Of a DNA stretch of 33,818 nt, positions 101 to 33,818 are shown one piece after another. The notes below the pieces were generated by a model. That model ran no database searches. It was given only the letters and a program-made list of their open reading frames with translations, and was not told the origin of the DNA. Origin of the DNA: Microcella sp. (lineage in GTDB: Bacteria; Actinomycetota; Actinomycetes; Actinomycetales; Microbacteriaceae); assembly GCA_030158585.1 (NCBI GenBank), contig JAOASR010000068.1, positions 1-33,818 of the forward strand, read 5' to 3'. Both the position numbers and the translations under genes were made by a program. Position 1 is the stretch's first letter. Each line of letters opens with the position of its first letter.

Positions 101-238
101 TCGCGTTGTGGGGGCACGACCGCCGCGGGATTGTCGTTCAGCGTGAATGACATTCACCTCGTGCTGTCGTGCGCTCGCGCCTGCCGCTAGCCTCAGGCCA
201 GGCCTGTACCCGAAGACGGGTCTCTGGAGGTGGCAGCG

Positions 239-1504
239 ATGCCCATCGAGCCGTCGAGCTGGGTCGCCGGCGGCACGGCGCTGACCTTCGTCGTCGCCTT
301 CGGGGCGGCTCTCATCGCCGACCACGTGCGGGCCGTGCGATCGCGTCGGCGCCTCCGCACGCGCATCCTGGTCACGGGCTCGCGCGGCAAGTCGGGCACG
401 GTGCGTCTCATTCATGCCGCGCTCTCCGGGGGCGACGCCCTCGTCTACGCCAAGATGACCGGCACGCTCGCCGCCGAGATCGACGTCCACGGCATCGAGA
501 CGCCCACGGTTCGCCTCGGCGCCGCGGGCGTGAGCGAGATGCCGCTCGCGATCCGTCGCGCCGCGGCGCAGGGCGCGACCAGTGAAGTGTTCGAGTGCAT
601 GGCCGTCACACCCGCCCTCATCGCGCTCGTGCAGCAGAAGATGGTGCGGGCGCACATCGTCGTCATCCCCACCATCCGCCTCGACCACCTGGAGGAGGGC
701 CTCTCCGAGCTCGACATCGGCATGAGCATCCTGCGCGCTCTCGACCGGCCCTCGATCGTGGTGACCGGCGTCACCCAGCCCCGTATCGCCGAGGCGTACC
801 GAGCGCACGCCGCCGAGCGCGGCATCGACCTCCGCTTCGCCGTGCCGACCGCCAACACTCCGACAGCGCCCGGTCATCACCCGGTGAACGTCGAGCTCGC
901 CCTCGCCGTCGCCGAGCTCGAGGGGGTGCCGCGCGCCGTCGCGATCGAGCGGCTCCTCGCCGTCTCGACCGAGCCCCGAGCCCTCACAGTGCAGGAGCTG
1001 CAGCCCGAGGGCGCCGGGCTTCTGCGCCTCGTCGATCTCGGCGGGGCCAACGACCCCCAGTCGGCGCGCGAGGCCTTCGACGCGACGGGGCTCGACCGCG
1101 ACACCGTCATCCCCGTGCTCGTCAACAGATGGGAGCGGCCGCTCCGCGCTCTGAGCTTCATCGGCGCCGCCGTGCATCGCTTCCCCGTGGTCGCGATCGC
1201 CGGCACGCTGCACGCGCACGCCGTCGGGCTCGATCACTCCCTCATCACGAAGGTCGAGCGCCTCTACGACGAGACGTGCTTCGTGCCCCTGCGTCGACGC
1301 GACTGCGGTTCGGTGCTGCGGCTCTCGGCGTGGGTCGAGCGCTTCATCGCCTCGAGCCCCGAGGGCATCCCGATCCCACGTCCGGCGCGCACGATCGTGC
1401 TCCTCGAGAACACGCACGATCCGACGGCGGATGCTCTGCGCCGGCTCTTCGATGAGCACGGCGTCACCCGCGCCTTCGTGCCGGAGGGTCGCGCCCATGC
1501 CTGA
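239..1504 (+). CDS. pgsB: Poly-gamma-glutamate synthase PgsB/CapB-like (Mur-ligase-type ATPase)
   Basis: Translation with ILVTGSRGKSGTVRLIHAAL P-loop and EVFECMAVTP, typical of the CapB/PgsB family. GGAGG lies 5' of ATG 239 (ORF track uses GTG 230). Followed by a pgsC-like gene. Confidence 0.8.
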   Translation: MPIEPSSWVAGGTALTFVVAFGAALIADHVRAVRSRRRLRTRILVTGSRGKSGTVRLIHAALSGGDALVYAKMTGTLAAEIDVHGIETPTVRLGAAGVSEMPLAIRRAAAQGATSEVFECMAVTPALIALVQQKMVRAHIVVIPTIRLDHLEEGLSELDIGMSILRALDRPSIVVTGVTQPRIAEAYRAHAAERGIDLRFAVPTANTPTAPGHHPVNVELALAVAELEGVPRAVAIERLLAVSTEPRALTVQELQPEGAGLLRLVDLGGANDPQSAREAFDATGLDRDTVIPVLVNRWERPLRALSFIGAAVHRFPVVAIAGTLHAHAVGLDHSLITKVERLYDETCFVPLRRRDCGSVLRLSAWVERFIASSPEGIPIPRPARTIVLLENTHDPTADALRRLFDEHGVTRAFVPEGRAHA

Positions 1505-2627
1505 GGTCGGGGTCGACGCCGCTCGAGCCTGCCTCGTCATCGGGCTCGTCATCACGGCCCTCGCGTATAGGCGCACACGCGTCGCGAGCGGCGGCGCCGT
1601 GACGGGCAGCTACCTCTCGTTCCTGGTGCTGACGGGCAATTGGGAGGACATCGTCGGCTGGCTCCTGCTCGCGCTCGTCGGTCTCGCCGCCATGCGCGTG
1701 GTCTGCACCCGCTTCCCGATGTCGCGGGCCTGGGCCTACTACGTCGGCATCCTGGTGCCGGCGGCGCTGCACGTGGCCCTCGTCTCGCTCGCGCAGCTGC
1801 CGGCGCTGAGCGGCCTCTCGGCGATGCTCGTGGCGGGGCTCTACGTGACCAACGGACTCACCGCCTACGACATGCACCGGCAGGGAGTCGGGCGCACGCT
1901 GCTCGCGGTCGCCGGGGTCACGGCGCTCACCCTCGCCGTGGTCGTGCCGCTGAACGCCGTGATGCTCGCGATCTCGCTCACGCCCGAGACCCTGCCCTAC
2001 TTCACCGCGCACGAGCCTCTGCTGATCCTGCTCTGCATCGCCGTGAGCGCAGGAGTGCACCTGGGCCTCGGGCTCGGCACGGCGGGCATCATCGGCTCGC
2101 TGTTCGTGATCGAGATCCTCACTTGGCAGTCGATCCTCATGCTCGTCATCGTGAGCTGGGTCGGCGCCGTCATCGCGCGGCGCGCGACGCGGGTGCTCGC
2201 GCTGTCTCCGCGGCAGCGCCTCTACGCCATCCTCGTGGTCGGGTCGATCGCGAGCTGGTTCGGGCTCTACTGGCTCGATCGGCTGGGCATCCCGGGAGCC
2301 CAGTTCCACTCGGTCTTCGGTGTCGAGACCCTCCTCGTGGTCGGGCTGCTCATCAGCGAGAACGTGCGGCTGGGCGCCGCGCGAGCCTACGGCGGCGCCG
2401 CGATCGTCACAGCGGTCACCGCCGCGGTCGACTGGTCGAGCGGGCAGGAGCTCCCGCTCAGGGGCGCCGTCGTCGCGGCGGCCATCCTGCTCGTGGCGGC
2501 GCTCTTCTGGCTGGGCGCGCGATCGCAGCAGGATCTGTGGAGGCGCGCGATCGTCGCGGGCGACCGCTGGGCCGTGCTCGGCGACACCGACCAGCGGCGC
2601 TTCCTTCGCGGCGGAGACCTGCCCTAG
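1497..2627 (+). CDS. pgsC: PgsC/CapC-like poly-gamma-glutamate biosynthesis membrane protein with two PgsC-like halves
   Basis: 376-aa polytopic membrane protein, ATG 1497 overlapping the pgsB stop by 8 nt. Contains two related blocks, GAVTGSYLSFLVLTGNWEDIVGW and GTAGIIGSLFVIEILTWQSILML. Confidence 0.7.
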   Translation: MPEVGVDAARACLVIGLVITALAYRRTRVASGGAVTGSYLSFLVLTGNWEDIVGWLLLALVGLAAMRVVCTRFPMSRAWAYYVGILVPAALHVALVSLAQLPALSGLSAMLVAGLYVTNGLTAYDMHRQGVGRTLLAVAGVTALTLAVVVPLNAVMLAISLTPETLPYFTAHEPLLILLCIAVSAGVHLGLGLGTAGIIGSLFVIEILTWQSILMLVIVSWVGAVIARRATRVLALSPRQRLYAILVVGSIASWFGLYWLDRLGIPGAQFHSVFGVETLLVVGLLISENVRLGAARAYGGAAIVTAVTAAVDWSSGQELPLRGAVVAAAILLVAALFWLGARSQQDLWRRAIVAGDRWAVLGDTDQRRFLRGGDLP

Positions 2628-13616: not shown

Positions 13617-14144
13617 ATGGACGGACCGGTCATGCGCGTCATCACCACGCTCGCTGTTGCACTTCTCGGGCTCGCGCTCTCGATCGTCGTCGTCGGGGTG
13701 CTGCTGGCGAGCGCCGATCCGTCGCGCGCCGCGCAGATTCTCGTCGAGTGGCCGATCGAGCGCGTGGCGACGCTCGCCGCGGCCCCGCTCGCCGCCCTCG
13801 GCATGGGGCTCTACCCGGTGCTCGCGGTGATCGCGGTCGTCGCGCTGCGCCGGGTGCCGTGGTCGATCACGGCGCACGTTCTCGGGGCAGGTTTCGCCGC
13901 CCTTCTCGCGACGGGGGCGTGGATGCTCGGGGGCGAGGCCGGCGCCGCCGCCCTCGAGATCAACGGAGGGCTGACCTCCACGGCCCTTCGCCTGCTCGCG
14001 GGCGCCGTGCTCGCAGCGGCGATCACGCGCGCCCTCGCCCGCAGCGTGGACGCGCGGCCGGTGAGTGGCAGATCTAGGCGGTCGGCCGACTCGCGATCGG
14101 AAGGCCGAGATCACGGCGAGTCCGTGCCGAGACAGCGACCGTAA
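13617..14144 (+). CDS. Small hypothetical membrane protein
   Basis: Multiple hydrophobic segments; SD-like AAAGGAG upstream. Its C-terminus overlaps the convergent 14074-16041 gene. Confidence 0.45.
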   Translation: MDGPVMRVITTLAVALLGLALSIVVVGVLLASADPSRAAQILVEWPIERVATLAAAPLAALGMGLYPVLAVIAVVALRRVPWSITAHVLGAGFAALLATGAWMLGGEAGAAALEINGGLTSTALRLLAGAVLAAAITRALARSVDARPVSGRSRRSADSRSEGRDHGESVPRQRP

Positions 14145-16041
14145 CGAGGCCGACGAGCAGGAGCATGACGCCGATCGGCGCGAGCTCGCCCGCGAGGTCG
14201 CCGCCGGTGGCTGCGAGTGCGGCCGGGCGCTCGACCGTCGGGGCCGGCGTTGGTGTCGGAGTGGGAGTCGGAGCGGCGGCGTCGAGGCTGGCGGTGGTCA
14301 GCACCTCGCTCCACGGGCCCTGACCCTCACTGTTGACGGCGGCGACGCGCACGAGCACCGTCTGGCCCGCCTCAAGCCCGGTGATGATCACGGTTGTGAT
14401 CGCGGGGTCGGTACCCGGTGCGGCGACCCAGGTTGCTCCATCGTCGAGGGAGTGCTCAACGGCGTAGGAGGTGATCGACGTGCCGCCATCATCGCTCGGC
14501 ACGAGCCACGAGATCGTGACCTCACCGTCACCGCGCACCGACGTGGGCGCGGCGGGAGCGGCGGGGGTGGTGACGTAGGTGAACGCCGAGGTGAGCGTGA
14601 GGGGGGTCTGGGCGATGCCGCCGAGGGTCCACTCGATGACGACGTCGACGCGTCCTGACTCGCCAGCGGGGGTGGTCACGGTCCAAGCGCCGGTGGTCGA
14701 GTCGAGCAGCAGGTCGGTGCCGGCGACGCCGTCGAAGAGAACTGCGGTCACTGCCGATGCGGGCAGGAAGATCTCGACCGGCTCTGACGTCGTGGTCGTG
14801 GTGCCGTCGCCGACCACTCCCTGGGCGTTGAATCCCCACGCGTACGTGGCCCCACCGGTGGTGATCGCCGTCGCGTGGTTGGGGCTTGCGGCGACGCTGA
14901 CCACGACCCCGTCGGGCAGGGTTGCGACCTTCGTTGGGGTCGATGTGCTGACGTACGTTCCATCGCCCAGCTGGTTGCCGCCGTTGTAGCCCCAGACGTA
15001 GACGTTGCCGTCGTCGCCGACGGCAAGCGAGGTGTACGTGTCGACGGTGATGAGGGTGAAGCTCACGCCTGTCGGTGCGAGCGCTTCTGTCGGGATCAGA
15101 CGGTCGATGCCGCTGGTGCCATCACCGACCGCGCCGTCATCGTTGAACCCCCAGCCATAGGGAGTGCCGTCGAGGCTGATCGCGAGGGAGTGGTACGCCC
15201 CCGCGGCGATGCTGCCGAAGGAGACTCCGTCGGGCGCCTTGACCGGTGTCGGGGTCAATCGCTGAACCTTCGACTCGTCGCCGAGCTGGCCGTTGGCGTT
15301 GTTGCCCCACGCGTACGTCGTGCCGTCGTCGCCTGTCGCGAGGGAGTGGTAGCCGCCCGCCGCGATGCTGGTGACGTCGACGTCGGTCGGGGTCGGCACC
15401 TTCGTCGGGATCGAGCCATTCGTGGTGGTGCCGTCACCGAGCTGGCCAAACAGGTTCCAGCCCCAGGCGTAGACGCTTCCGTCGTCGCCGATCGCCAGGG
15501 TGTGCCCTTCGCCGGCGGCGACGCTCGTGAACGTGACCCCGGTCGGCGCCTGCACCTTCGTGGGCGTCGACCGGCTGGTGGTCGTGCCGTCGCCGAGCTG
15601 GCCGTACGTGTTCAGACCCCATGCATAGGTGTGCCCGTCATCGCCGATCGCGACCGAGTGGTCGTCGCCGGCGTCGATGGCGATGAACGTGACTCCCGCG
15701 GGCGTCGCGATCGTCGTGGGCGCCGACGTGCTGCCCACGGTCTCGCCGTTGCCCAGCTGGCCGTAGACGTCCTGTCCCCAGCTGTAGGTGCCTCCATCGT
15801 CGCCGAGAGCGACGGTATGACGTGCGCCCGATGCCACGAACGTGAAGGCCGTGTCGCCGGGAGATGCCACGGTCACGGCCGTGCCGCCCCCGACCGGCCC
15901 ACTCGTCGCGCTCAGCGTGACGGCAGCCTGGGCAGAGCCGGCGGACACCGCCGCGGCGGCCATCGCGACGCCGACGATCAGGACGATGCCTGCTCCGTGA
16001 TGACTCCGTGCGCGTGGCATCGTCGGGAAGCTCATGAGCAT
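14074..16041 (-). CDS. Secreted RCC1-repeat plus fibronectin type III surface protein with C-terminal LAATG sorting-like signal
   Basis: Signal peptide; repeated YAWGxNxxGQLGDGTTTxxxxPTKV units; FN3 (PAAPTSVRGDGEVTISWLVPSDDGGTSITSYAVEHSLDDG); C-terminus LAATGGDLAGELAPIGVMLLLVGLVTVAVSARTRR. Confidence 0.88.
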   Translation of the reverse strand: MLMSFPTMPRARSHHGAGIVLIVGVAMAAAAVSAGSAQAAVTLSATSGPVGGGTAVTVASPGDTAFTFVASGARHTVALGDDGGTYSWGQDVYGQLGNGETVGSTSAPTTIATPAGVTFIAIDAGDDHSVAIGDDGHTYAWGLNTYGQLGDGTTTSRSTPTKVQAPTGVTFTSVAAGEGHTLAIGDDGSVYAWGWNLFGQLGDGTTTNGSIPTKVPTPTDVDVTSIAAGGYHSLATGDDGTTYAWGNNANGQLGDESKVQRLTPTPVKAPDGVSFGSIAAGAYHSLAISLDGTPYGWGFNDDGAVGDGTSGIDRLIPTEALAPTGVSFTLITVDTYTSLAVGDDGNVYVWGYNGGNQLGDGTYVSTSTPTKVATLPDGVVVSVAASPNHATAITTGGATYAWGFNAQGVVGDGTTTTTSEPVEIFLPASAVTAVLFDGVAGTDLLLDSTTGAWTVTTPAGESGRVDVVIEWTLGGIAQTPLTLTSAFTYVTTPAAPAAPTSVRGDGEVTISWLVPSDDGGTSITSYAVEHSLDDGATWVAAPGTDPAITTVIITGLEAGQTVLVRVAAVNSEGQGPWSEVLTTASLDAAAPTPTPTPTPAPTVERPAALAATGGDLAGELAPIGVMLLLVGLVTVAVSARTRRDLGLPIASRPTA

Positions 16042-18996: not shown

Positions 18997-19345
18997 GGAT
19001 CGAACCTTTCTGTTCCGGTGCGTGCCGGCGCCGCTTCCGATCGGAGGCGATCCGCTCGGCACATGGGGGTCTCCGGAGCGATCGGGGCGCCGGTTTGGCG
19101 CGGGGATGCTCTGACCCCCGTTCGGGGGAGGTGCGACGCGATTCGCTGTGACTTCCTGGGAGCCCGCTCGCCCGACATCTCGGGGATCGGGGCCGCGGCC
19201 GGCGTCCTTTCTGTGAGGGTGCTTCATGCAGACGTTCAGCAGATCTGATATCCCCCCCCGTTTACGGGATAAGAAACGGCTTCACATTCGGATACCGAAT
19301 GGGGCCGAATTACGACCACTCCGGGCACTCCTCGGAGGTGGTTGC

Positions 19346-20809
19346 ATGTCGACGCCGCTCGACCCACGAGCCGATCGACCCGGAGTCCCGATGCCCGCAT
19401 TCGCACGCCCCACCCGTACCTCGCTGACGGCCCGCTCGACTCGCCGTGGGCTCGCCCCACTCGCCCTCGGGCTGCTCGTCGCGATCGGCGCGACCGTCGC
19501 CGGCGCGCTGCCGGCAGCACTTGCGGCACCGGGCAGCAACAAGGTGACCATCTGCCACCGCACCCACTCGGTCACCAACCCGTACCGGATGATCACGGTC
19601 AGCGCGAGCGCGGCCGATGGCGCCGGCAAGAGCGACCACACGAATCATGACGAGGTGTACTCGGTCGACGGCACCTCCTACCCCGTCTTCTCGCGTGCCG
19701 TCGACTACCCGGCGAACCAGAAGTGGTGGGGCGACATCATCCCGCCGGTGCGCAACAGCCCCGGCCTCAACTGGGCCGCCGCCGGTGCGCAGGAGATCTA
19801 CACGGGCGTCGGCACGAGCTTCGGACTCTGCGGACGCATGTCGGCCAAGACGTTCTACGACCTCGAGGTCGCCGCAGGCATCCCCGCCGCCGATGTGCTC
19901 GCCGACCTCGACGAGCAGGCTTCGCGCGAAGACGCCGAGCTGCTGCAGAAGCTCGGTGTGACGAAGTTCTCTGACCTCGACCCCGCAGCGCTCCCGACGA
20001 GCTTCACGTCCCTGCCCGAGGCGCCGAAGGGTGCCCCCGCTCCCGCCTCCGTCACGCCCGAGAAGGGCAAGCAGAAGATCGCGGTCTTCGTCTGGTACGA
20101 CACCGATCGGGATGGCGCCTTCGACGCCGACGAGCAGCCTGCGTCGGGCATCCCCGTCTCGCTCGGCGCGGTCGTCGATGTCGCACCCGCGGGCTTCGGG
20201 CCCGCCACGAGCTTCGTCATGGGGGCCGGTCAGCTGATGACCGACGCGAATGGTCTCATCGTCGATGAGAGCATCACGGCCGGACAGTGGGAAGCCGCGG
20301 CGGTCACGCCCGAGGCCGACGAGGTGACGTACGACTCCGAGGGCACCGTCGACGATGGCGCGGCCGTCGTCGACGTTCCCGCCGACTCCACCGGCTTCGC
20401 GTGGATCGGCCTCGTCACGCTCGCGGTCGACGGCCCCACTGACGGCGGCGCGGGTGGCGGGACTGGCGGCGGCGCGGGTGGCGGCACCGACGGCGGCACT
20501 GACGGCGGTGCGGGCGGCGGCGCTGAGGGCGGCACCGATCCCGGCACTGACGGCGGCGCCGATTCCGGTGCGGGCGACGGCGGCCCCGGAGCGAACGACG
20601 AGGGCGCGGGAGACGGCGACGCTGAGGCCGGTTCGTTCGACTTCGCCGACGGCGCTCCGGTCACCGGCGACCTCGCCGCCACGGGCGGTCCTCTCGACGC
20701 CGCGAGCCTCGCGGTCGGCGCCGGCGCGCTCATCGTGCTCGGCGTCGCCCTCGCCCGACGTGCGTGGAACGCACGTCGCCGCTCTCTCGAGCTGGTCGAG
20801 GCCGACTAG
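19346..20809 (+). CDS. Secreted cell-surface protein with CHRT-type N-terminal domain, SdrD-B-like domain, Gly/Thr/Asp-rich spacer and LAATG anchor
   Basis: ATG 19346 after GGAGGTGG; NKVTICHRTHSVTNPYRMITVSASA; FVWYDTDRDGAFDADEQPASGIPVSL; DGGAGGGTGGG spacer; DLAATGGPLDAASLAVGAGALIVLGVALARRAWNARRR. Confidence 0.85.
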   Translation: MSTPLDPRADRPGVPMPAFARPTRTSLTARSTRRGLAPLALGLLVAIGATVAGALPAALAAPGSNKVTICHRTHSVTNPYRMITVSASAADGAGKSDHTNHDEVYSVDGTSYPVFSRAVDYPANQKWWGDIIPPVRNSPGLNWAAAGAQEIYTGVGTSFGLCGRMSAKTFYDLEVAAGIPAADVLADLDEQASREDAELLQKLGVTKFSDLDPAALPTSFTSLPEAPKGAPAPASVTPEKGKQKIAVFVWYDTDRDGAFDADEQPASGIPVSLGAVVDVAPAGFGPATSFVMGAGQLMTDANGLIVDESITAGQWEAAAVTPEADEVTYDSEGTVDDGAAVVDVPADSTGFAWIGLVTLAVDGPTDGGAGGGTGGGAGGGTDGGTDGGAGGGAEGGTDPGTDGGADSGAGDGGPGANDEGAGDGDAEAGSFDFADGAPVTGDLAATGGPLDAASLAVGAGALIVLGVALARRAWNARRRSLELVEAD

Positions 20810-21750: not shown

Positions 21751-22668
21751 GTGGCCGGCTCGCGCGCCCTGCTCGTGGGCGACGTCATCGACGACATCAT
21801 CGTCGTGCCGACCGGGCCGATCAGGCCCGACACCGATACGACGTCGCACATCTCGCGCAACGCGGGCGGCAGCGCCGCCAACACGGCGGCGTGGCTCGGC
21901 TGGCTGGGTGCGGGCGTCGACTTCGTCGGCCGCGTCGGGGCCGGCGACGCCGAGCGCCACGCGCGCGAGCTCAGCGAGGCCGGAGCGACCCCGCACCTGA
22001 CCGAAGACCCCGACCGCGTCACGGGCACGATCGTCATCCTCGTCGAGGGGCAGCAGCGCACGATGCTGACCGATCGGGGCGCGAATGCGACGCTCGACCC
22101 GACCCAGGTGACGGATGCCCTGCTCGCGACCTCGGGCATCCTGCACCTGACCGGCTACTCCCTCGTCGACGCCCTCTCGCCCTGCGCGCTGCACGAGCTC
22201 ATCGAGCGCGCTCACGCGCACGGAGCGACCGTCACGCTCGACCCGAGCTCGACGGGCTTCATCGCCGACTACGGAGTCGAGGCGTTTCGCACGGCGATCG
22301 CCGGGGTCGATCTGCTGCGGCCGAACCTCGACGAGGGGCGCCTGCTCGCCGGCCTCGGGGCCGACGCGCCGTCTGCCGCCGTGGCCGAGGCGCTGCTCGA
22401 CCTCGCGCCGGCGGTGCTGCTGACGTGCGGGCCCGCGGGCGTGACGATCGCCGAGTGGCGGGCGGATGCGCCCGCACACATTGTCGAGCTGCCGGCTGAG
22501 CGCGTCGAGACGGTCGACCCCACCGGCGCCGGCGACTCGTTCACGGCCGGCTTCCTCGCCGCCCGCCTCGCCGGGGCAGACCTCGCCCACGCCGCGCGAG
22601 AGGGCCAGCGCGTCGCCGCGATCGCGGTGAGCCGCGTCGGCGGCCGCCCGCCCGCGGGCCAGCGCTGA
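21751..22668 (+). CDS. PfkB-family carbohydrate kinase, probable pseudouridine kinase
   Basis: GGSAANTAAWLGWLGAGVDFVGRVGAGD and DPTGAGDSFTAGFLAARLAG. Immediately downstream of psuG. Start uncertain (GTG 21751 assumed). Confidence 0.82.
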   Translation: MAGSRALLVGDVIDDIIVVPTGPIRPDTDTTSHISRNAGGSAANTAAWLGWLGAGVDFVGRVGAGDAERHARELSEAGATPHLTEDPDRVTGTIVILVEGQQRTMLTDRGANATLDPTQVTDALLATSGILHLTGYSLVDALSPCALHELIERAHAHGATVTLDPSSTGFIADYGVEAFRTAIAGVDLLRPNLDEGRLLAGLGADAPSAAVAEALLDLAPAVLLTCGPAGVTIAEWRADAPAHIVELPAERVETVDPTGAGDSFTAGFLAARLAGADLAHAAREGQRVAAIAVSRVGGRPPAGQR

Positions 22669-22684
22669 CCGGCGCCGCCCTGCG

Positions 22685-23923
22685 CTACCGGGCGCTCGCC
22701 GTCAGCTCGCGCTGAGCACTCGGGTCGGCGGGGAAGAGCGGCGCCTCGAGGGGGTCGCTCAGCAGCGGAGCGAACGCGAGCTCGCCCGCGCCGACCAGCA
22801 GCACGTCTGAACCGAGCGTGCCCAGCAGGATGGGGCAGCTGCGCGAGTGCGACTCGAGCGCATAGCGCTGCACCGCCTGGTCGACCTCCGAGCGGCGGCA
22901 CTCGAAGATCACGCGGAGGAAGCCGGTGAGCACGACGGCCTCGGGATTGAACATGTTCATGAGCATGCCGATGGCGCGGCCGAGACCGTCGGCCTGCTTG
23001 TCGAGCAGGGCATCGGCGGGCCCTGGAGGGTGCTCGCGGATGGCGCGCGCGAGGGTCTCGTCGTCGGCGCGGTCGAGCCTGAGCGCGGTGAGCAGATCGA
23101 GGCGATTGACGACCGAGTCGAGGCTGCCGGGGATGCCGCCGTAGTTCGGCCGCACCTCGTCCGAGATCGCGATGTGTCCGAGCTCGCCGGCGAATCCATC
23201 GCGACCGCGCAGCAGTTGGCCGTCGACCACGAGCCCGCCGCCGACGCCGCCGACGGCGCCGAAGAGCAGCACCATGTTGCGCAGGTTGCGGGCGATGCCG
23301 AAGCGCTGCTCGGCGAGGCTCGCGAGTGACGCGTCGTTGTCGATCCACACCGGAAGGCCCGTGCGCGCGGCGATCATGTCGGCGAGGGGCACGGTGCCCC
23401 ACCCGAGCGAGTACGCGGAGTCGACCACGCCGTCGGCGACGCGCACCTGCCCCGGGCTCGCCACGCCGATGCCGGCGATGACGGCGTCGTCGTCGAGCCG
23501 CTCGCGATGCTCGGCGACGAGCTCAGCGATCGCGTCCGAGGCGATCTCGGGCGAGGGGAGTGTGGCCAGCACGCGGCTGGACCGGTGCAGGATGCGCCCG
23601 CTCAGCCCGACGGTGGCGACAACGATCGAGTCGTACAGGGGCACGACCGTGAACGCGACGACATGGTGGGCCGCGCGCACGACGGTGCTCGGTCGACCGA
23701 CGCCCCCGCTGGCGGCACCGGTGCCCTGCTCGACGAGACCGCGCGCCTCGAGGTCACCGAGCAGCGCGAGCACCGACGATCGGGTGATGCCGGCCTGCTC
23801 CGCGAGCTGGCTGCGCGAGACCTCGCGGCCGTAGTGGACGAGGCGCAGCAGCGCCCCGAGGTTGGCGCGCTTCAGGCGGGTCAGCCCGCGCGTGCTGCCG
23901 CCCTGAGCCGGATTCTTATTCAC
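22685..23923 (-). CDS. ROK-family transcriptional regulator
   Basis: N-terminal wHTH (SRSQLAEQAGITRSSVLALLGDLEARGLVEQG) and ROK fold (GIGVASPGQVRVADGVV, WIDNDASLASLAEQRFG, FGAVGGVGGGLVVDGQLLRGRDGFAGELGHI); GTG start. Confidence 0.88.
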   Translation of the reverse strand: MNKNPAQGGSTRGLTRLKRANLGALLRLVHYGREVSRSQLAEQAGITRSSVLALLGDLEARGLVEQGTGAASGGVGRPSTVVRAAHHVVAFTVVPLYDSIVVATVGLSGRILHRSSRVLATLPSPEIASDAIAELVAEHRERLDDDAVIAGIGVASPGQVRVADGVVDSAYSLGWGTVPLADMIAARTGLPVWIDNDASLASLAEQRFGIARNLRNMVLLFGAVGGVGGGLVVDGQLLRGRDGFAGELGHIAISDEVRPNYGGIPGSLDSVVNRLDLLTALRLDRADDETLARAIREHPPGPADALLDKQADGLGRAIGMLMNMFNPEAVVLTGFLRVIFECRRSEVDQAVQRYALESHSRSCPILLGTLGSDVLLVGAGELAFAPLLSDPLEAPLFPADPSAQRELTASAR

Positions 23924-24069: not shown

Positions 24070-25308
24070 ATGGTGTTCTCATCGACACGACGCGGCGCCC
24101 TCATCGTGGCCGCCGGAATGGCGCTGACCCTGGCCGGATGCACGGCCGGCGGTGCTGGCGGAGCGGCGCAGTCCGACTCGCTCGAGTTCTGGGCCTACGA
24201 GCCCAACTCGCTCAGCCAGAAGGAGGCTCTCGACGCCCTCGTGGCCGAGTTCGAGGCCGAGAACGAGATCGACGTGCGCGTCACCTACGTGCCGAAGGAC
24301 GCCTTCAACACCAAGCTGAACTCGTCGATCGCCGTGGGGCGCAATCCCGACGTGTCGTACCTCGACCAGCCGCTCACCCCTCGCTTCGCGGGCGACGGCA
24401 TCCTGCTCGACATCACCGATCAGCTCGAGACCGGCCTCGGCGCCGACGCCTTCGCGCCGGCCGCGATGGACACGAACGTCGTCGACGGCCGTGTCTACGG
24501 CGTCCCGCTCTCGATGACGACCGTCGCGCTGTACTACAACACGGCGCTCGTGCAGACGCCTCCCACCACGTGGGACGAGTGGCTGGAGTCGGCCGAAGAC
24601 GTGTACGTGCCGAACACGACCGCGGCCTTCGAGGGCATCGGCGGCGGCGGATGGGGCGCCTGGCTCTTCCCCGCCTTCGTGCACAGCGGCGGCGGCACCA
24701 TGATCTCTCCCGCCGACAGCTCGGCGACCTTCGGCGACGAGGCGGGCGTCGAGGCGGCGAACTTCCTGCTCGACCTGCAGCGCTACTCCGATCAGGCGGT
24801 GCGTCAGAGCGAGAACGCGTTCGGCAACGGGCTCGTCGCGTACAAGGTCTCAGGACCGTGGGAGATCGAGGCGCTCTCCAAGAGCTTCCCGAACCTCGAG
24901 TTCGCGGTGGCGCCCCTGCCCTCGCGCGACGGCGGGACCTCGGTCTCGAACATCGGCGGCGAGAACCTCGTCATCTTCGAGAACTCCACCAAGCAGGACC
25001 TCGCCTACGCCCTCATCGAGCACCTCACGGATGCCGAGGGAATGCAGGTCATGGCCGGCGTCACGGGCAACTTCGCCACCAACCTCGAGGCTGCGGCCGC
25101 GCTCAACTTCTCGGCCGACCCGAACCTGGCGGTGTTCGAGGCGCAGCTGCAGACCGCTATTCCGCGACCCACGCTGACGGAGTGGCTGAAGGTCAACGAT
25201 GAGGTCATCGGCTCGGCGCTCGACGCGATCTTCGTCTCGGGCGAAGACCCGACGACCGTGCTGACCGAGGCCAACGAGCGCGCCAACGTCATCCTGCTCG
25301 GCGAGTAG
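24070..25308 (+). CDS. ABC transporter substrate-binding lipoprotein (sugar family)
   Basis: Lipobox MALTLAGCTAGG; SBP_bac_1-like body (LEFWAYEPNSLSQKEALDALVAEFEAENEIDVRVTYVPKDAFNTKLNSSIAVGRNPDV). Confidence 0.92.
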   Translation: MVFSSTRRGALIVAAGMALTLAGCTAGGAGGAAQSDSLEFWAYEPNSLSQKEALDALVAEFEAENEIDVRVTYVPKDAFNTKLNSSIAVGRNPDVSYLDQPLTPRFAGDGILLDITDQLETGLGADAFAPAAMDTNVVDGRVYGVPLSMTTVALYYNTALVQTPPTTWDEWLESAEDVYVPNTTAAFEGIGGGGWGAWLFPAFVHSGGGTMISPADSSATFGDEAGVEAANFLLDLQRYSDQAVRQSENAFGNGLVAYKVSGPWEIEALSKSFPNLEFAVAPLPSRDGGTSVSNIGGENLVIFENSTKQDLAYALIEHLTDAEGMQVMAGVTGNFATNLEAAAALNFSADPNLAVFEAQLQTAIPRPTLTEWLKVNDEVIGSALDAIFVSGEDPTTVLTEANERANVILLGE

Positions 25309-25310
25309 CG

Positions 25311-26279
25311 ATGACGCAGCTCATCGACCCGGCGGTCGTCGCGGGGCAGCCCGCGACGCCGCCGCGACGCCCGCGGCCCGCGCCGCGCCGCGGGGCGTCC
25401 CCCCGCCGCACGTCGTACCGCGCCCGGCAGAACCGCACCGGCTACCTCTTCATCCTGCCGTTCCTGCTGTACTTCGCGATGTTCCTGCTGCTGCCGATGC
25501 TCATGTCGTTCGTGCTGAGCTTCATGGAGTGGGATCTGCGGTCGGCGCCGACTTTCGTCGGCCTCGACAACTACGCCAATCTGCTGTTCGACCCCATCCG
25601 ATACCCGGAGTTCTGGCCGTCGCTCGGCGTGACGCTGCAGTACATCCTGATGAGCGTTCCGCTCGGCATCGCGTTCGCGCTCGGCATCTCGGCGATGCTG
25701 AACGCGAACGTCAAGGGCGAGGGGTTCTTCAAGACCGCCTACTTCATCCCGAACGTCACGGCGGTGGTGGCCGTGGCCGCCATGTGGATCTTCATGCTCG
25801 ACCCGCAGTTCGGGCTGATCAACGACGTGCTCGGCACGAACATCAGCTTCCTCGGGATGCCCGAGACGGCGCTCGCGTCACTGGCGGCGATGGCCATCTG
25901 GGGGGCGCTGGGGTACAACATCCTCATCCTGCTCTCGGCGATGAAGTCGATCGATGAGTCTCTCTACGAGGCGGCGAAGATCGACGGCGCCAACGCCGTG
26001 CAGCGCTTCTTCGCGATCACGCTGCCGTCGATCCAGCCGATCATCTTCTTCATCATCATCACCGCCACGATCGGGGCGTTCCAGGCCTTCGACCAGATGT
26101 ACCTCATGACCGGCGGAGGGCCCGACGGCTCGACGTTGACCTACCTGCTGAGCCTGTACAACCACGCCTTCCGGTACTTCGAGATGGGAACGGCGTCGGC
26201 GATGTCGTACCTGCTGCTCCTCATCATTCTGTTCGTGACCTGGGTGGGCTTCCGGTTCATCCCGCAGAAGCTCGACTAA
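25311..26279 (+). CDS. ABC sugar transporter permease (MalF/UgpA-type)
   Basis: TM helices and EAA loop YEAAKIDGANAVQRFFAITLPSIQPII. Confidence 0.93.
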   Translation: MTQLIDPAVVAGQPATPPRRPRPAPRRGASPRRTSYRARQNRTGYLFILPFLLYFAMFLLLPMLMSFVLSFMEWDLRSAPTFVGLDNYANLLFDPIRYPEFWPSLGVTLQYILMSVPLGIAFALGISAMLNANVKGEGFFKTAYFIPNVTAVVAVAAMWIFMLDPQFGLINDVLGTNISFLGMPETALASLAAMAIWGALGYNILILLSAMKSIDESLYEAAKIDGANAVQRFFAITLPSIQPIIFFIIITATIGAFQAFDQMYLMTGGGPDGSTLTYLLSLYNHAFRYFEMGTASAMSYLLLLIILFVTWVGFRFIPQKLD

Positions 26280-26288
26280 GGGATCGCC

Positions 26289-27140
26289 ATGATTGCTCGC
26301 AGAATCTCGCGGGTCGCGCTGTACGCGTTCCTGTTCTTCCTCGTCGCGCTGCTCGTCGGGCCCTTCCTCTGGCTCACGCTCGCGTCGTTCAAGGACGGCA
26401 GCCAGATCCTCTCCGCCGACTCGCCCATCCTCCCGGTGGATGAGAACGGCGATTTCCAGATCAAGCTCGACAACTACGTCGTGGCGTTCGACTACCTGCA
26501 GCTCAACACGCTGTTCCTGAACACCTTCATCGTCGCGACCGTGGCGACCGCGTTCAATCTGTTCTTCAACAGCCTTGCGGGCTACGCCTTCGCGCGCATC
26601 GCCTTCCGCGGGCGCGAGACGATCTTCCGGCTCGTGCTCGCCTCGCTCATGGTGCCCGGCACGGTGATGCTCGTGCCGAACATGATCATCATCAATCAGC
26701 TGGGGCTCTTCGACAGCCTCGGTGCGCTGATCGTGCCGTTCGTGATGAGCGTCTACAACATCTTCCTCATGCGCCAGACCTTCCTGGGGTTCCCGCGCGA
26801 GCTGGAGGAGGCGGCGATCATCGACGGCGCGAGCGCGTTCCGCGTGTTCTGGACGATCGCGATGCCGCTCGCTCGGCCGATGCTCGTGGTGCTCGGCATC
26901 ACGACCTTCATGTGGAACTACAACAACTTCCTCTGGCCTCTGGTGGTCATCCAGTCGCCGGAGAACGGCACGCTCTCGCTCGGTCTGGGCTCGCTCGTCT
27001 CCGCGAGCGCCACCAACGCCGAGCTGTACCCCGTGATGCTCGCCGCATCCGTGGTCATCTCGGTGCCGCTCATCATCATCTTCCTCGTCTTCCAGAAGCA
27101 CATCGTCAAGGGCATCGCTGCCGGAGCACTGAAGGGCTGA
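26289..27140 (+). CDS. ABC sugar transporter permease (MalG/UgpE-type)
   Basis: TM helices and EAA loop ELEEAAIIDGASAFRVFWTIAMPLARPML. Confidence 0.93.
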   Translation: MIARRISRVALYAFLFFLVALLVGPFLWLTLASFKDGSQILSADSPILPVDENGDFQIKLDNYVVAFDYLQLNTLFLNTFIVATVATAFNLFFNSLAGYAFARIAFRGRETIFRLVLASLMVPGTVMLVPNMIIINQLGLFDSLGALIVPFVMSVYNIFLMRQTFLGFPRELEEAAIIDGASAFRVFWTIAMPLARPMLVVLGITTFMWNYNNFLWPLVVIQSPENGTLSLGLGSLVSASATNAELYPVMLAASVVISVPLIIIFLVFQKHIVKGIAAGALKG

Positions 27141-27147: not shown

Positions 27148-28563
27148 ATGACCCACGCCATCACCACCCCCACCCTCTCGACGCACCCCCAGCGCGCTGC
27201 CACCGGCGTCGGCACGATCGCCGAGGTGACGACGATCCGCTTCGAGCAGTCCGGATCGACCGTGACGCGTCTCTCTGCGCCCCTGGTCGACCGCAACGAC
27301 CAGGAGTTCAACGTCGTCAACGTCTATCCCGACGTGCACTACCAGACCATCGACGGCTTCGGCGGTGCGATCACCGAGGCGGCCGCCTACACGTTCTCTC
27401 TGCTGTCGCCGGCCGAGCAGCAGCGAGTGCTCGAGTACTACTTCGGCCAGGACCACGCCCGTTACTCGGTGGTGCGCACGCACCTCGACAGCTGCGACTT
27501 CTCGCTCGACCAGTACCAGGCGCTCGGCGTCGACGACGACGAGTCGTTCGCGAGCTTCTCGCTCGCGCGCGACGAGCAGTACATCCTGCCGATGCTGCGC
27601 AGGGCGCAGGAGGTCGCCGGGCGAGCCCTCGAGATCATGCTCTCGCCGTGGTCGCCCCCCGCCTTCATGAAGAGCAACCTGTCGCGCACGCACGGCGGCT
27701 CGCTGCTGCCGCAGTATCGCCGGTTCTGGGCCCGCTACATCGTCCGCTACGTGCAGGCGTACCGCGATCTCGGGTTCCGCGTCACGCGCATCACCATCCA
27801 GAACGAGCCCAACGCGACGCAGACGTGGGACAGCTGCCGGTTCACCGCGGCGGAGGAGAAGGAGTTCCTGCGCGACTTCCTCCACCCCGAGCTGCAGCGT
27901 GCAGGACTCGACGACGTCGGCGTGCACATCTGGGATCACAACAAGGAGCGCGTCTACGAGCGCACGCGCGACATCATCGACGACGACACTCGGCACATGA
28001 TCGCCGGCGTCGCCTTCCACTGGTACACCGGCGAGCACTTCGACGCGCTCGCGCTCGTCCGAGAGCAGTACCCCGAGCTCAAGCTCGTCTTCTCGGAGGG
28101 CTGCGTCGAGTACAGCCGGTTCGAGCCCGCCGACTCGCGCGGCAACGCGGCGATGTACGCGCACGACATCATCGGCAACCTCAACGCGGGCATGAACATG
28201 TTCATCGACTGGAACGTGCTGCTCGACGCCGAGGGCGGGCCCAATCACGTGCGCAACTTCTGCGCCGCGGCCATCATGGCCGACCCGGTCACCGGCGACG
28301 CCCGTCTCACCGGCATCTACTGGGTCATGGCCGAGTTCAGCCGCAGCATCCAGCCCGGTGCCCTGCGCGTGGCGACGACGAAGTACACCGCCGACCTCGA
28401 CGTGGTCGCCGCGCAGAACCCCGACGGTTCGCTCGCGCTTCTCGTGCACAACACCGTCGACAGCGAGCGCGAGGTGGTCGTCCGGGTGAACGGCGCCTCC
28501 GTCACCGTGCTCGCGCCGGCCCACTCGCTCGTCAGCCTTCGCACGCCCGCCACGGCCGGCTGA
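27148..28563 (+). CDS. Glycoside hydrolase family 30, no evident signal peptide
   Basis: TIDGFGGAITEAAAYTF, IMLSPWSPPAFMKSN, ITIQNEPNATQTWDSC (acid/base E), LVFSEGCVEY (candidate nucleophile). Confidence 0.9.
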   Translation: MTHAITTPTLSTHPQRAATGVGTIAEVTTIRFEQSGSTVTRLSAPLVDRNDQEFNVVNVYPDVHYQTIDGFGGAITEAAAYTFSLLSPAEQQRVLEYYFGQDHARYSVVRTHLDSCDFSLDQYQALGVDDDESFASFSLARDEQYILPMLRRAQEVAGRALEIMLSPWSPPAFMKSNLSRTHGGSLLPQYRRFWARYIVRYVQAYRDLGFRVTRITIQNEPNATQTWDSCRFTAAEEKEFLRDFLHPELQRAGLDDVGVHIWDHNKERVYERTRDIIDDDTRHMIAGVAFHWYTGEHFDALALVREQYPELKLVFSEGCVEYSRFEPADSRGNAAMYAHDIIGNLNAGMNMFIDWNVLLDAEGGPNHVRNFCAAAIMADPVTGDARLTGIYWVMAEFSRSIQPGALRVATTKYTADLDVVAAQNPDGSLALLVHNTVDSEREVVVRVNGASVTVLAPAHSLVSLRTPATAG

Positions 28564-28653: not shown

Positions 28654-30123
28654 ATGCGTCGACTCGCCCCCCTCGCTGCAGCCTCACTCGCGGCCGTGCT
28701 GCTCGCCGGCTGCACGTCCAGCCCGGCCTTCGTCGAGGTCTACTCCACAACCGGCACCAAGGCCGACCTGCTCGAGCGGAAGTCCGACCTTCCCGTCGAT
28801 GCCGCGCCGGCCACCGGCAACGTCGACGTCGTCGTCGACGCGGGAGCCGAGCTGCAGGAGGTCGACGGCTTCGGTGTCGCCATCACCCACTCGGCGGCAT
28901 TCGTGCTCATGGAGCAGGAGCAGGAGACCCGGACGGAGATCCTCACCGAGCTCTTCTCGGTCGACGAGGGTGCCGGGTTCTCGATGGTCCGACTGCCCAT
29001 CGGCACCTCCGACTACGCGGGCGTGACCGAGGGCGAGGAGCGGCACTACACCTACAACGACGTCGAGCCGGGCGAGACCGACCCGGAGCTCTCGGGCTTC
29101 TCGATCGACGCCGACCGCGCCACGATCATTCCCGTCATGCAGGAGATCCTCGAGATCAACCCCGAGGTTCGCGTCATCGCCTCGCCGTGGTCGGCTCCCG
29201 CCTGGATGAAGACGAGCGACAGCTTCTACTCGGGCAGCCTGCGTCCGGAGTTCGAGGAGGCCTTCGCCGACTACCTCGTCAAGTACGTCGAGGCCTACGA
29301 CGCGGAGGGCATCCCCGTCGACTACCTGACCATCCAGAACGAGCCCGCCGTCACCAACACCAATTACCCGGTCATGGAGATGGGCGAGTTCCAGCAGCTG
29401 AGCCTTATCCGGCTCGTCGGGCCCCGCCTCGAGGAGGCCGGCTTCGAGAGCACGCGCGTGCTCGCCTACGACTTCAACTACAGCGCCGAGTGGGAGTCGT
29501 ACGCGAAGGGCTTCATCGACACGATCCTCAGCGACCCCGAGGCCGAGCAGTACACCGCCGGCATCGCCTGGCACGGCTACGACGGCGACGGGCTCGAGAA
29601 GTTCTCCGAGGGGCTCAACTACGTCGAGGAGAACTACCCAGACAAGAAGTCGCTCGTGACCGAGATCACCGAGGGCCTGTGGAACATGGACTTCGCGAGC
29701 AACCTCAGCTACTCGCTCGAGAACGTCACCCTCGGCCCACTCAACGCCCACTCGACCGGCGCGCTGTACTGGAACGCTGCCCTCTACGAGGACGGGTCGC
29801 CCGTGCTCGGCGGCGGCGAGACCAGCCTCGGCGTCATCTCCGTCGACGAGGGCGGCGACTTCGCCAAGAGCTCGGCCTACTACTCGATGGCCCATTTCTC
29901 GAGCTTCATCCCGCCCCGGTCGGAGGGTGTCAGCCGCGTCCTCGCGACCGAGACCACCTCGCCCACCGTCTTCGCCGCCTCGGTGAAGCGCCCCGACGGC
30001 CGCGTCATCGTGGTCGTCACCAACACCAGCACGGCCTTCCCCGAGACCGTGAACGTCATCGTCGACGGAGCGGTCGTGACCGCCGAGATCGATGCCCAGA
30101 GCGTCATCACCTTCCTCTACTAG
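28654..30123 (+). CDS. Secreted GH30 lipoprotein
   Basis: ATG 28654, lipobox AAVLLAGCTSS; EVDGFGVAITHSAAFVL, VIASPWSAPAWMKTSDSF, LTIQNEPAVTNTNYPVME, LVTEITEGLW. Confidence 0.9.
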   Translation: MRRLAPLAAASLAAVLLAGCTSSPAFVEVYSTTGTKADLLERKSDLPVDAAPATGNVDVVVDAGAELQEVDGFGVAITHSAAFVLMEQEQETRTEILTELFSVDEGAGFSMVRLPIGTSDYAGVTEGEERHYTYNDVEPGETDPELSGFSIDADRATIIPVMQEILEINPEVRVIASPWSAPAWMKTSDSFYSGSLRPEFEEAFADYLVKYVEAYDAEGIPVDYLTIQNEPAVTNTNYPVMEMGEFQQLSLIRLVGPRLEEAGFESTRVLAYDFNYSAEWESYAKGFIDTILSDPEAEQYTAGIAWHGYDGDGLEKFSEGLNYVEENYPDKKSLVTEITEGLWNMDFASNLSYSLENVTLGPLNAHSTGALYWNAALYEDGSPVLGGGETSLGVISVDEGGDFAKSSAYYSMAHFSSFIPPRSEGVSRVLATETTSPTVFAASVKRPDGRVIVVVTNTSTAFPETVNVIVDGAVVTAEIDAQSVITFLY

Positions 30124-30133
30124 GAGACCCACC

Positions 30134-33100
30134 ATGCCTATCCGACCCGTGGCCATCGCCGGCTCCGTCGTGGGCGCCGTCGCCCTCGGCACCGCCGGGG
30201 TCCTCCTCGCGACGATGCTCACTCCCGGCGCGCCGGTGCAGCCCTTCGTCGCGACCGAGCTCGGTGACGTCCGCATCACCCAGCAGTCGTCGACCGCCTA
30301 CGACATCGACGTCGTCCTCCCGGATGGGATGGACGGCACCGAGGACATGACCGTGGCGCTGACGTCGAACGACGAGGGTGACGACGCTGTCGCCCTGAAC
30401 GCGACCGTCAACGCCGGACGTGTGCTCATCGATGATGTCGAGCTCGAACCCGGTGACCACTTCCTCTGGGTAGAAACCGCTGAGACGACCGTCTCGACGC
30501 CGATCACCATCCCCGACATGAAGCCCTTCATCTGGCTCGACGGCGAGGTGCCGAACATCCAGTTCAACCAGGAGGGCCAGTCGTCGTGGAGCTCGTACGT
30601 CGACCCGGAGGGGAAGAACGTCTTCCGCAGCGCAGCGCGCACCTTCGATGAGTCGGCGACCCCGATCGCCGAGAGTCTCCCGATCACCGAGACCGACTTC
30701 CGTGATGAGAACCACAGCGCCGCTGAGCCGTACTACTACCTGGTGTTCACGGGCAAGTCCGGTGCATCGACCTTCGTGACGGCGCCGCTGTTCACCTCGG
30801 CCACGCAGGGTGACGTCGATGTGACGTTCGCCCTGGAGGACGACGAGCCGGTCGCCCTCATCACCGGATCCGTCTTCGCCAAGGAGGAGGCGGTCGACCG
30901 CACCCTCTCGCTCCGCGTGGGCAACTTCGATCCCGCCGACGCCTCCGCCACCTTCGTGGTCGAGAACAGCGCCGACCCGGTCGACCCGACGGCGTTCGCG
31001 TTCCGGGTGCCGCTCAGCGGCCTGGAGCCCGGATCGAACAACCTGGTGCTCTTCCTCGAGGAGGACGGCACCATGCTCGAGTGGTCCATTCGGGCGCCCG
31101 AGCTCGACATGTCGCGGTCGCTGGAGGTCGGCGACACGGTCTACGGCGTCGCGAGCCCGGATGCCCTGCAGCTGACGCGCGTCGACCTCGCCTATCGCGA
31201 CCTCGCCTTCTCGCTCGGCACGTCGGGTGACGCGGCGTTCCTCTCGGTGAGCGGCCGCTTCACCGACGCCTTCGCCGACGCGGGCACCGCCCTCATCATC
31301 AAGGAGGTCGACGGCGAGTCGTACACGGTCGTCGACCGCAACGCCGCGGCCGATCGCTTCTCGTACTCGTTCCCGCTCGCGCAGCTCTCGAAGCCGACCG
31401 TCTGGTACGACATCGAGTTCTTCAACCCGCAGACCGAGGTGATGAGCCCGATCCTGGCCTCATCGGTCGCCGACTTCCGCCAGTGGGTGCAGGCGGAGAA
31501 CCGCACGTACGCGCTCGCCGACTTCCAGGGCATGACGAAGGTGTTCTTCGAGCGGTTCCCGTACCGCGACGCCTCGATCGACCTGCAGGTGATCGGCGGC
31601 GAGGCCATGCTGGTCGCGACGGGAACTCTGGTCGACGTGGCCAGCAGCGACGCGTTCCTGCGACTGCGAACCGGTGACGACGTCGCGGCCGACGTGCGCA
31701 ATCTCAGCACGGTGCCCGGCCAGTTCCTCTTCCGGTTCCCGCTGCGCGAGCTGTCGGAGCCCCGCACCTGGTACGACGCGGTGCTCGGCCTGCGCACGAA
31801 CGACTCGTTCCACGACTTCCTCACCACGTCGGTCGCCGACATGGGGAAGACGATCACGGTCGGGGAGCGCACCTACGGCTTCCGCGAGTGGAACGGCCAG
31901 CTCAAGGTCGCGTTCGACCTCACCATCGGTGACATCGACCTGACCTCGGCCGAGCTCGTCGAGGTTGACGGCAAGCCCGTCCTCCGCGTCGCCGGATCGA
32001 TGCAGGGCCTCGCCCAGAACGACGTCTTCCTCCGCGTGCGCACCGAGGGCCAGTCCTTCGACGCTCCGAACCGCGCCTCCTCGGCCGGGGAGATCCGGTT
32101 CGACCTCGATCTGTCATCGATGAGCAAGGCCGACACCTGGTACGACGTCGTCATCGGCAACGTGCCCGAGGGCTCGCTGACCGACCTCGTGCCGGCTATC
32201 ACCGATCTGTCGCAGACGATCCGCGTCGACGGTCGCGAATACGGATTCCGCGTCTTCAACGACCAGCTCAAGGTGGTGTTCGCGCCGCGCACCGGTGAGA
32301 TCACGATGACCTCCGGCGAGCTGCTCGACGTCGACGGAGTGCCGACCCTGCGGGTCATCGGCACCCTCGCTGGCCTGGCCAAGGGCGACGTCTTCCTCCG
32401 CGTGCGCACTGAGGGCTTCTCGTACGACACTCCGAACACCGCGACCGCGGCGGGCGCCGTGCAGTTCGACGTCGATGTCTCCGGGCTGCAGAGAGCCGGC
32501 GTGTGGCACGACCTCGTGATCGGCAACGAGCGCGACGGCTCGCTCACCGACCTCTCCCCGGCGATCGTCGACATGGGCGAGACCCTGAACCTCGGCGGTC
32601 GTGAGTACGGCTTCCGCGAGTTCAACGGGCAGCTGAAGGTGGTCTTCGACCCCAGGGTCGGATCGGTGACGGTCGCCAGTGGTGAGCTCCTCGATCTCGG
32701 CGGCGTACCCACGCTGCGTGTCGCGGGGCAGATCGCCGGCGTCGCCTCGTCGGAGGTGTTCCTGCGGGTGCGCACCGACGGTCAGTCGTTCGACGTGCCC
32801 AACACGGCCGCTGTCGCAGGAGAGATGCGGTTCGACGCCGATCTGTCGGCGCTGACGAAGTCGGGCACCTGGTACGACCTGCTTGTCGGCAACGCTTCTG
32901 ACGGCTCGCTCGTCGACCTGACCACGTCCGTGGTCGACATGAACTCGACCCTCACTCTCGGGGGGCGCACCTATGGCTTCCGTGAGTTCAATGGCGACCT
33001 GAAGGTGGTCTTCGACCCGGCGGCGGAGGGTTCGGTGTCGGTGTCGCAGGCGTCGTTCGTCGACCTCGCCGGGGTGCCGACGCTGCGGGTCGAGGGGTCG

Positions 33101-33818
33101 GTGACGGGTCTGTCGCAGGGTGATGTGTTCCTGCGGGTCCGCACCGGTGCTCAGACGTTCGACGTGCCGAATTCGGGTGCTGCGGGTGGGGCGCTGTTCG
33201 AGGTCGATCTGACGCAGCTCACCCAGCAGGGCACCTGGTACGACCTCGTGGTCGGGGTGACCTCGACGGGGGTGCTGACGGATCTGAAGACCTCGATGGC
33301 CGACATGAACTCGACGCTGACGCTGGGTGCGCGCACCTATGGCTTCCGTGAGTTCAATGGCGACCTGAAGGTGGTCTTCGAACCGGCGGCAGAGGGTTCG
33401 GTGTCGATCGCCTCGGCCGAGATCGTCGACGTCGAGGGCGTGCCGACGCTGCGGGTCGAGGGCACGACGACCGGCCTCTCGAGCGGCGACGTGTTCCTGC
33501 GGGTGCGCACCGGCAGCCAGACGATCGACGTGCCGAACGCGGGTGCTGCGGGTGCGGCGCTGTTCGAGCTCGACCTGTCGCAGCTCACGCAGCAGGACAC
33601 CTGGTACGACCTCGTGGTCGGCATCACCTCGACCGGTGTGCTGACGGATCTGAAGGACACGATGGCCGACATGTCGACGTCGCTGACGCTGGGCGGTCGC
33701 ACCTACGAGTTCCGCGAGTTCTGGGGCGACCTGAAGGTGAACTTCGCGGCGGCGGCGCCCGGGTCGGTGTCGATCGCCTCGGCCGAGATCGTCGACGTCG
33801 AGGGCGTGCCGACGCTGC
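30134..33818 (+). CDS. Partial exported giant tandem-repeat protein (right end outside window)
   Basis: ATG 30134, 11 nt after the GH30 stop; open to the window edge (1228 complete codons). N-terminal hydrophobic export segment MPIRPVAIAGSVVGAVALGTAGVLLATML. Not in the supplied ORF track, apparently because no stop is present. Confidence 0.88.
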   Translation, partial: MPIRPVAIAGSVVGAVALGTAGVLLATMLTPGAPVQPFVATELGDVRITQQSSTAYDIDVVLPDGMDGTEDMTVALTSNDEGDDAVALNATVNAGRVLIDDVELEPGDHFLWVETAETTVSTPITIPDMKPFIWLDGEVPNIQFNQEGQSSWSSYVDPEGKNVFRSAARTFDESATPIAESLPITETDFRDENHSAAEPYYYLVFTGKSGASTFVTAPLFTSATQGDVDVTFALEDDEPVALITGSVFAKEEAVDRTLSLRVGNFDPADASATFVVENSADPVDPTAFAFRVPLSGLEPGSNNLVLFLEEDGTMLEWSIRAPELDMSRSLEVGDTVYGVASPDALQLTRVDLAYRDLAFSLGTSGDAAFLSVSGRFTDAFADAGTALIIKEVDGESYTVVDRNAAADRFSYSFPLAQLSKPTVWYDIEFFNPQTEVMSPILASSVADFRQWVQAENRTYALADFQGMTKVFFERFPYRDASIDLQVIGGEAMLVATGTLVDVASSDAFLRLRTGDDVAADVRNLSTVPGQFLFRFPLRELSEPRTWYDAVLGLRTNDSFHDFLTTSVADMGKTITVGERTYGFREWNGQLKVAFDLTIGDIDLTSAELVEVDGKPVLRVAGSMQGLAQNDVFLRVRTEGQSFDAPNRASSAGEIRFDLDLSSMSKADTWYDVVIGNVPEGSLTDLVPAITDLSQTIRVDGREYGFRVFNDQLKVVFAPRTGEITMTSGELLDVDGVPTLRVIGTLAGLAKGDVFLRVRTEGFSYDTPNTATAAGAVQFDVDVSGLQRAGVWHDLVIGNERDGSLTDLSPAIVDMGETLNLGGREYGFREFNGQLKVVFDPRVGSVTVASGELLDLGGVPTLRVAGQIAGVASSEVFLRVRTDGQSFDVPNTAAVAGEMRFDADLSALTKSGTWYDLLVGNASDGSLVDLTTSVVDMNSTLTLGGRTYGFREFNGDLKVVFDPAAEGSVSVSQASFVDLAGVPTLRVEGSVTGLSQGDVFLRVRTGAQTFDVPNSGAAGGALFEVDLTQLTQQGTWYDLVVGVTSTGVLTDLKTSMADMNSTLTLGARTYGFREFNGDLKVVFEPAAEGSVSIASAEIVDVEGVPTLRVEGTTTGLSSGDVFLRVRTGSQTIDVPNAGAAGAALFELDLSQLTQQDTWYDLVVGITSTGVLTDLKDTMADMSTSLTLGGRTYEFREFWGDLKVNFAAAAPGSVSIASAEIVDVEGVPTL
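30845..33818 (+). repeat. Tandem protein-coding repeats of about 122-128 aa, at least nine unit anchors
   Basis: Equivalent codons of the EGVPTLRVEG-like motif at 30845, 31229, 31601, 31973, 32339, 32705, 33074, 33440, 33806; spacings 384, 372, 372, 366, 366, 369, 366, 366 nt, all in frame. Confidence 0.9.

Follow-up and report, generated by a model that had tools for sequence, protein, structure and literature searches.

BT3312 of Bacteroides thetaiotaomicron is an endo-beta-1,6-glucanase of the cell surface, encoded in a locus for fungal glucan, and a CxxC motif lines its -2 subsite (PMC5481569). Sas20 of Ruminococcus bromii is a stand-alone glycan-binding surface protein that has no catalytic domain and holds polysaccharide (PMC9112005), and the C-terminal tandem domains of TarS were described as carbohydrate-binding-module-like, resembling the N-terminal domains of a pullulanase (PMC5156392). 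No literature on the protein considered here, or on such cassettes in actinobacteria, was found with the terms tried. The protein closes a GH30/ABC transporter cassette in Microcella sp., in a window of 33,818 nucleotides (the whole stretch of DNA analysed) that forms part of a 56.7-kb contig (C68) of a draft genome 82.6% complete.

The cassette began with a divergent gene for a ROK-family regulator (22685–23923, minus strand; PF00480), which was also the first gene in both relatives. On the plus strand followed a sugar ABC transporter binding lipoprotein (24070–25308; PF13416/PF01547), two sugar ABC transporter permeases (25311–26279 and 26289–27140; both PF00528), a GH30 enzyme without export signal (27148–28563; PF02055, 1e-50; nearest solved structure 2wnw), a secreted GH30 lipoprotein with a MRRLAPLAAASLAAVLLAGC lipobox and no accessory module (28654–30123; PF02055, 3e-38), and the tandem-unit exported protein (30134–33818). 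A scan of 85,462 species genomes recovered two relatives of the latter, both from metagenome assemblies, in a Microbacterium sp. (L022:5841–8384; 847 residues, five units) and a Leifsonia sp. (L023:5820–13298; 2492 residues, 12 units followed by an SGNH/GDSL hydrolase); the scan was seeded with patterns and needs near-exact short peptides, so that the family may be larger. The seven-gene order of ROK regulator, sugar-binding protein, two permeases, two GH30 enzymes and repeat protein was the same in all three genomes. The start at 30134 is backed by both relatives, whose starts lie at the homologous position, and by a Shine-Dalgarno-like AGGAG (30122–30126) that overlaps the GH30 stop codon; TAGGAG followed by the start codon occurs in three of three genomes. 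A spacing of 11 nt behind the GH30 lipoprotein stop had been given by an earlier, sequence-only reading, which took it as a sign of co-expression; the intergenic distance is 10 nt, and co-expression is likely.

The cassette was found at two different chromosomal settings, the Microbacterium one lying at the same site as that of the window genome and the Leifsonia one having different upstream neighbours. Three examined genomes of the same genus are without the whole segment of ~11.6 kb at that site. In one of them (G074), the left flank is homologous as far as the end of pfkB (window position 22653) and the right flank from the end of EamA (C68:34313) onward, and 185 bp separate the two; in the other two (G138 and G237), psuG-pfkB directly adjoin EamA. 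Because the flanking genes are adjacent in these three genomes, the repeat gene accompanies the cassette in both presence and absence, a pattern compatible with gain or loss. The segment from the ROK gene to the repeat gene (window position 22669 through 33818 and on to C68:34293) forms a clean presence/absence unit between the convergent pfkB and EamA genes.

The closest solved structure to the GH30 lipoprotein was 5ngk, that of BT3312 (E = 1.5e-59). Against the NCBIfam BT3312 model (NF053856) the lipoprotein scored 287.7 bits, the cut-off being 700. It retains the catalytic glutamates and is without the CxxC found in the BT3312 substrate loop; a CxxC does occur at the aligned position in other GH30 enzymes of the bacterial family. 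Direct transfer of substrate from BT3312 is weakened by the score of 288 bits against 700 and by the missing CxxC. From these sequence comparisons, beta-glucan is a reasonable guess for the cassette substrate, and beta-1,6-glucan, possibly fungal, is only a possibility. F5/8 type C modules are present in cis on further GH30 enzymes of the family, five in one genome (G126) and one each in three more (G079, G143, and G163). One GH30 protein of the family combines five F5/8 type C domains and an IPT domain in one chain (L034:5657–10021, minus strand), and at another candidate beta-glucan locus a GH3-like secreted enzyme, assigned by eye, adjoins a GH30 lipoprotein (L030:10138–13518, minus strand).

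Direct translation of the repeat gene gave an uninterrupted frame of 1228 residues (30134–33817), as the sequence-only reading had reported, with one further base in the window. The export segment that it had proposed was also recovered: residues 1–34 (30134–30235) hold a hydrophobic stretch of ~24 residues, with a best 19-residue Kyte-Doolittle mean of 2.03, consistent with a signal anchor or signal peptide and of a similar kind in both relatives. No clear signal-peptidase site was seen by eye within these 34 residues. Two non-repeat regions follow, N1 (residues 35–129; 30236–30520) and N2 (residues 130–221; 30521–30796); their assignment as degenerate units was rejected, the unit profile giving no significant match to either. 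From residue 222 onward, units abut at a period of 122 residues without linkers. The window holds eight complete units (residues 222–1204), comprising the divergent U1 (30797–31183) and U2 (31184–31549), then U3 (31550–31915), U4 (31916–32281), U5 (32282–32647), U6 (32648–33013), U7 (33014–33379) and U8 (33380–33745), together with the 24 residues that open a ninth (33746–33818), all on the plus strand. In a whole-genome search, E-values of single units against the unit profile ranged from 1e-26 to 1e-50, and so chance is excluded; the profile was built partly from these units, and independent genomes yielded each of them by position as well. With the terminal unit described below, the protein has at least nine units, in agreement with the earlier count.

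The frame stays open to the end of the window, which is the edge of an assembly gap of 100 Ns (C68:33819–33918). Extension of the contig beyond this gap reached the stop codon: the protein resumes in another phase (SGDVFLRVRTGSQTIDVPNTGAAGVALFEFDLSTLAEQGTWYDLLIG...YGFREWESDLKVVRFPV; SGDVFLRVRTG...LKVVRFPV) and ends within one terminal unit, with no catalytic domain, and the next gene, on the opposite strand, encodes an EamA transporter. The 73 nt that lead up to the gap match the start of U8 with 89% identity, and the 60 nt directly past it match the corresponding part of U8 with 97%. Because of this identity, the gap likely arose where the assembly broke between near-identical repeats, and whole extra units may lie inside it; were a single unit to bridge the gap, it would stand for 27 nt and the protein would have ~1331 residues and nine units, with the phase read by hand. 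The scaffold join can be trusted, since the independent Microbacterium genome has an unbroken orthologue of 847 residues with the same, distinctive terminal unit (GGTLPGDVQIGGNNYGFREWASNLKVNRSPV), followed by EamA and photolyase genes as in Microcella. In the unit tree, these two terminal units also pair (win_tail with mic_U5).

The sequence-only reading had advised looking for a C-terminal anchor or catalytic domain. Neither was found: the last part of the chain is a repeat unit (...DLKVVRFPV), with no sortase signal (LPXTG/LAXTG, hydrophobic stretch, basic tail) at its C-terminus, and the Microbacterium relative is likewise without a sortase-type end (...NLKVNRSPV). Pfam recognised no dockerin in the window protein. 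A catalytic domain was seen on the chain of the Leifsonia orthologue, and on neither the window protein nor the Microbacterium one, so that the suggestion of a stalk of a larger enzyme fails for Microcella and fits Leifsonia.

The beta-sandwich that the sequence-only reading had suspected was returned by structure prediction. A joint model of U6 and U7 had a mean pLDDT of 94.8 and was an all-beta sandwich with ~10 strands per unit; the input was 22 aligned unit pairs, and with a pTM of 0.64 the angle between units is uncertain. At the fold level, the units are thus predicted to be immunoglobulin/fibronectin-like beta-sandwiches of a generic type. Foldseek searches of the PDB with the two-unit model gave as top matches generic FN3/Ig/CBM-like sandwiches, with E-values of ~2e-4 to 1e-3 and TM-scores <0.4. 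TarS (residues 217–571) ranked fourth, with the highest query TM-score in the list (0.36), and a pullulanase other than the one mentioned above ranked fifth. This predicted resemblance is a lead towards glycan binding without being evidence for it. Membership of TarS_C1 (PF18674) was rejected, since the window's genome had no match to this family and the alignment of a TarS_C1-bearing protein with the unit profile covered 41 columns only, with an E-value of 0.08. Searches of Pfam-A, NCBIfam and PDB sequences placed neither the units nor the N-terminal regions in a family, as the sequence-only reading had found for the unit, and gave only sub-threshold or chance matches, among them CelD_N at 23.4 bits (cut-off 24.6) over 34 residues. 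The units had no match to a Pfam carbohydrate-binding module, their likeness to the TarS and pullulanase modules being one of fold, and no ligand-binding site was identified. A viral fold library returned generic sandwiches only, and a model of residues 1–350, built from three sequences, was too poor for use (pLDDT 48). The tandem-unit family is therefore absent from the searched catalogues; the module is new there, and the kind of system is known.

We propose, with a probability of roughly one half, that the repeat protein is a membrane-tethered, non-catalytic, tandem-module surface scaffold or glycan binder of a beta-glucan-type GH30 cassette. After export, the N-terminal hydrophobic segment would hold the chain at the membrane, and the rest of it (N1, then the conserved N2, then nine or more immunoglobulin-like units) would project outward through the wall. 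The protein may concentrate the target polysaccharide, or a hydrolase acting on it, beside the GH30 lipoprotein, which would cut the polymer; the ABC transporter would import the oligosaccharides and the GH30 enzyme without export signal would finish them. A scaffold or binder acting in trans is favoured because the GH30 lipoprotein has no modules of its own, a separate tandem-sandwich protein lies directly behind it, and the two are inherited together. A more specific version is tentative, and we would put it well below the general proposal: the 122-residue unit, or N2, may be a new family of carbohydrate-binding module, arrayed five to 12 times on a membrane-tethered chain, with the number of units tuning avidity and reach toward fungal beta-glucan beside the GH30 lipoprotein.

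Two other surface proteins in the window (14074–16041, minus strand, with RCC1 repeats and a fibronectin III domain; 19226–20809, plus strand) each close with a LAATGG motif, then a hydrophobic stretch and basic residues, and the organism therefore appears to use sortase-type anchoring. As the repeat protein is without such a LAATG-type signal, its N-terminal signal anchor is the likelier means of attachment. The N-terminus could instead be a cleaved signal peptide, which would leave a soluble protein and counts against tethering. At window positions 230–2627, neighbouring PgsB/CapB-like (Mur ligase middle domain) and CapC (PF14102) genes may be a poly-gamma-glutamate capsule pair.

The conservation of the protein bears on whether the units or another part of the chain bind. 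Among the three orthologues, identity was 33–51% in N1, 60–67% in N2, the most conserved part, and 39–63% in U1–U3. In a single unit tree with some weak nodes, U1, U2 and U3 each grouped by position across the three species, while middle units tended to group within species; unit number was five, at least nine and 12. By these comparisons, the N-terminal part appears old and fixed and the array behind it appears to expand. All this would also suit units that are an inert stalk or wall-spanning spacer, with unit number setting reach only and binding or enzyme docking residing in N2 or at the tip: N2 is better conserved than U1–U3, unit number varies while U1–U3 keep their positional identity, units adjoin without linkers, and the far end of the Leifsonia protein bears a hydrolase. 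An inert spacer would explain why N2 is conserved and why the Leifsonia protein bears a hydrolase nearly as well as the scaffold or binder does; on the other side, binding by the units is compatible with the data, and the two-unit model predicts no more than a generic sandwich. We regard the inert stalk as possible, though less probable than a scaffold or binder.

The Leifsonia hydrolase behind the 12 units (PF13472, E = 2e-14) has bacterial SGNH esterases and PAF acetylhydrolases as its nearest solved relatives. In the same region (L023:10917–13298), two similar modules of ~200 residues (VRIDFGPNDTTNG... and LLFDFGPSNSLDG...), unnamed by Pfam, lie on either side of it, and the protein ends in a low-complexity Pro/Glu-rich tail. 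The presence of this domain allows that an ancestral SGNH hydrolase was lost in the Microcella lineage, so that the protein there is the remnant of a truncated enzyme. We consider this improbable: the shorter form is intact in Microbacterium and also in the window genome when read across the gap, the distinctive terminal unit is common to both, and gain of the hydrolase in Leifsonia is at least as simple. Moreover, between the window and Microbacterium proteins, dN was 0.32 and dS 1.20 over N1–U3 (residues 1–594), with third codon positions changing most; this part is under purifying selection.

Searches with the unit profile in 250 family genomes and in 396 and 297 class genomes, and with an N-terminus profile in 376 class genomes, gave no further member; these draws have genomes in common. 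There was no paralogue in the three carrier genomes, no match in five genomes of the same genus, and no relative in the viral contigs and plasmids searched. Weak profile matches in eight class genomes (L014–L021, E = 0.005–0.09) were rejected as chance, in unrelated or implausible frames, as was a match in G236 (E = 1.6e-4, residues 15–99) that falls in an unrelated frame. A surface adhesin had been offered earlier beside a polysaccharide-binding scaffold; the setting in the cassette speaks for the scaffold. A cell-to-surface or cell-to-fungus adhesin merely co-regulated with the glycan cassette would suit a long, exported protein made of tandem sandwiches whose middle units expand within lineages, but it is very unlikely given that the gene is confined to the GH30/ABC cassette, is present or absent with it, and had no relative outside it in the genome and class searches.

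An unlisted tandem-domain family thereby gains a genomic setting, a natural C-terminus, a series of unit numbers (five, at least nine and 12) and an empty-site comparison, and the question of what a Gram-positive GH30 cassette uses instead of on-enzyme modules becomes testable. If the units bind glycan, they would form a new family of binding modules, and repeat number would act as a dial for capture at the surface.

Compared with known systems, the cassette resembles the B. thetaiotaomicron 1,6-beta-glucan locus, in which a surface GH30 enzyme, oligosaccharide import, a partner enzyme and surface glycan-handling proteins are likewise combined (PMC5481569). Transport there is SusC/D-like, whereas the Microcella cassette has an ABC transporter; its surface protein is a chain of tandem units, unlike those of the Bacteroides locus, and the CxxC of BT3312 is missing from the cassette GH30 lipoproteins. 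Sas20 is alike in proposed role, by which, and not by sequence, the two were compared; for the repeat protein, in which Pfam recognised no dockerin, binding is a prediction (PMC9112005). The C-terminal domains of TarS (PF18674; 5u02/5tz8) are similarly tandem immunoglobulin-like sandwiches, but the link has no sequence support and the repeat protein has no glycosyltransferase domain (PMC5156392). Finally, GH30 enzymes of the same family with F5/8 type C modules also pair GH30 with beta-sandwich modules, up to five of them; those modules sit on the enzyme chain (PF00754), while the Microcella units form a separate protein of an unlisted family.
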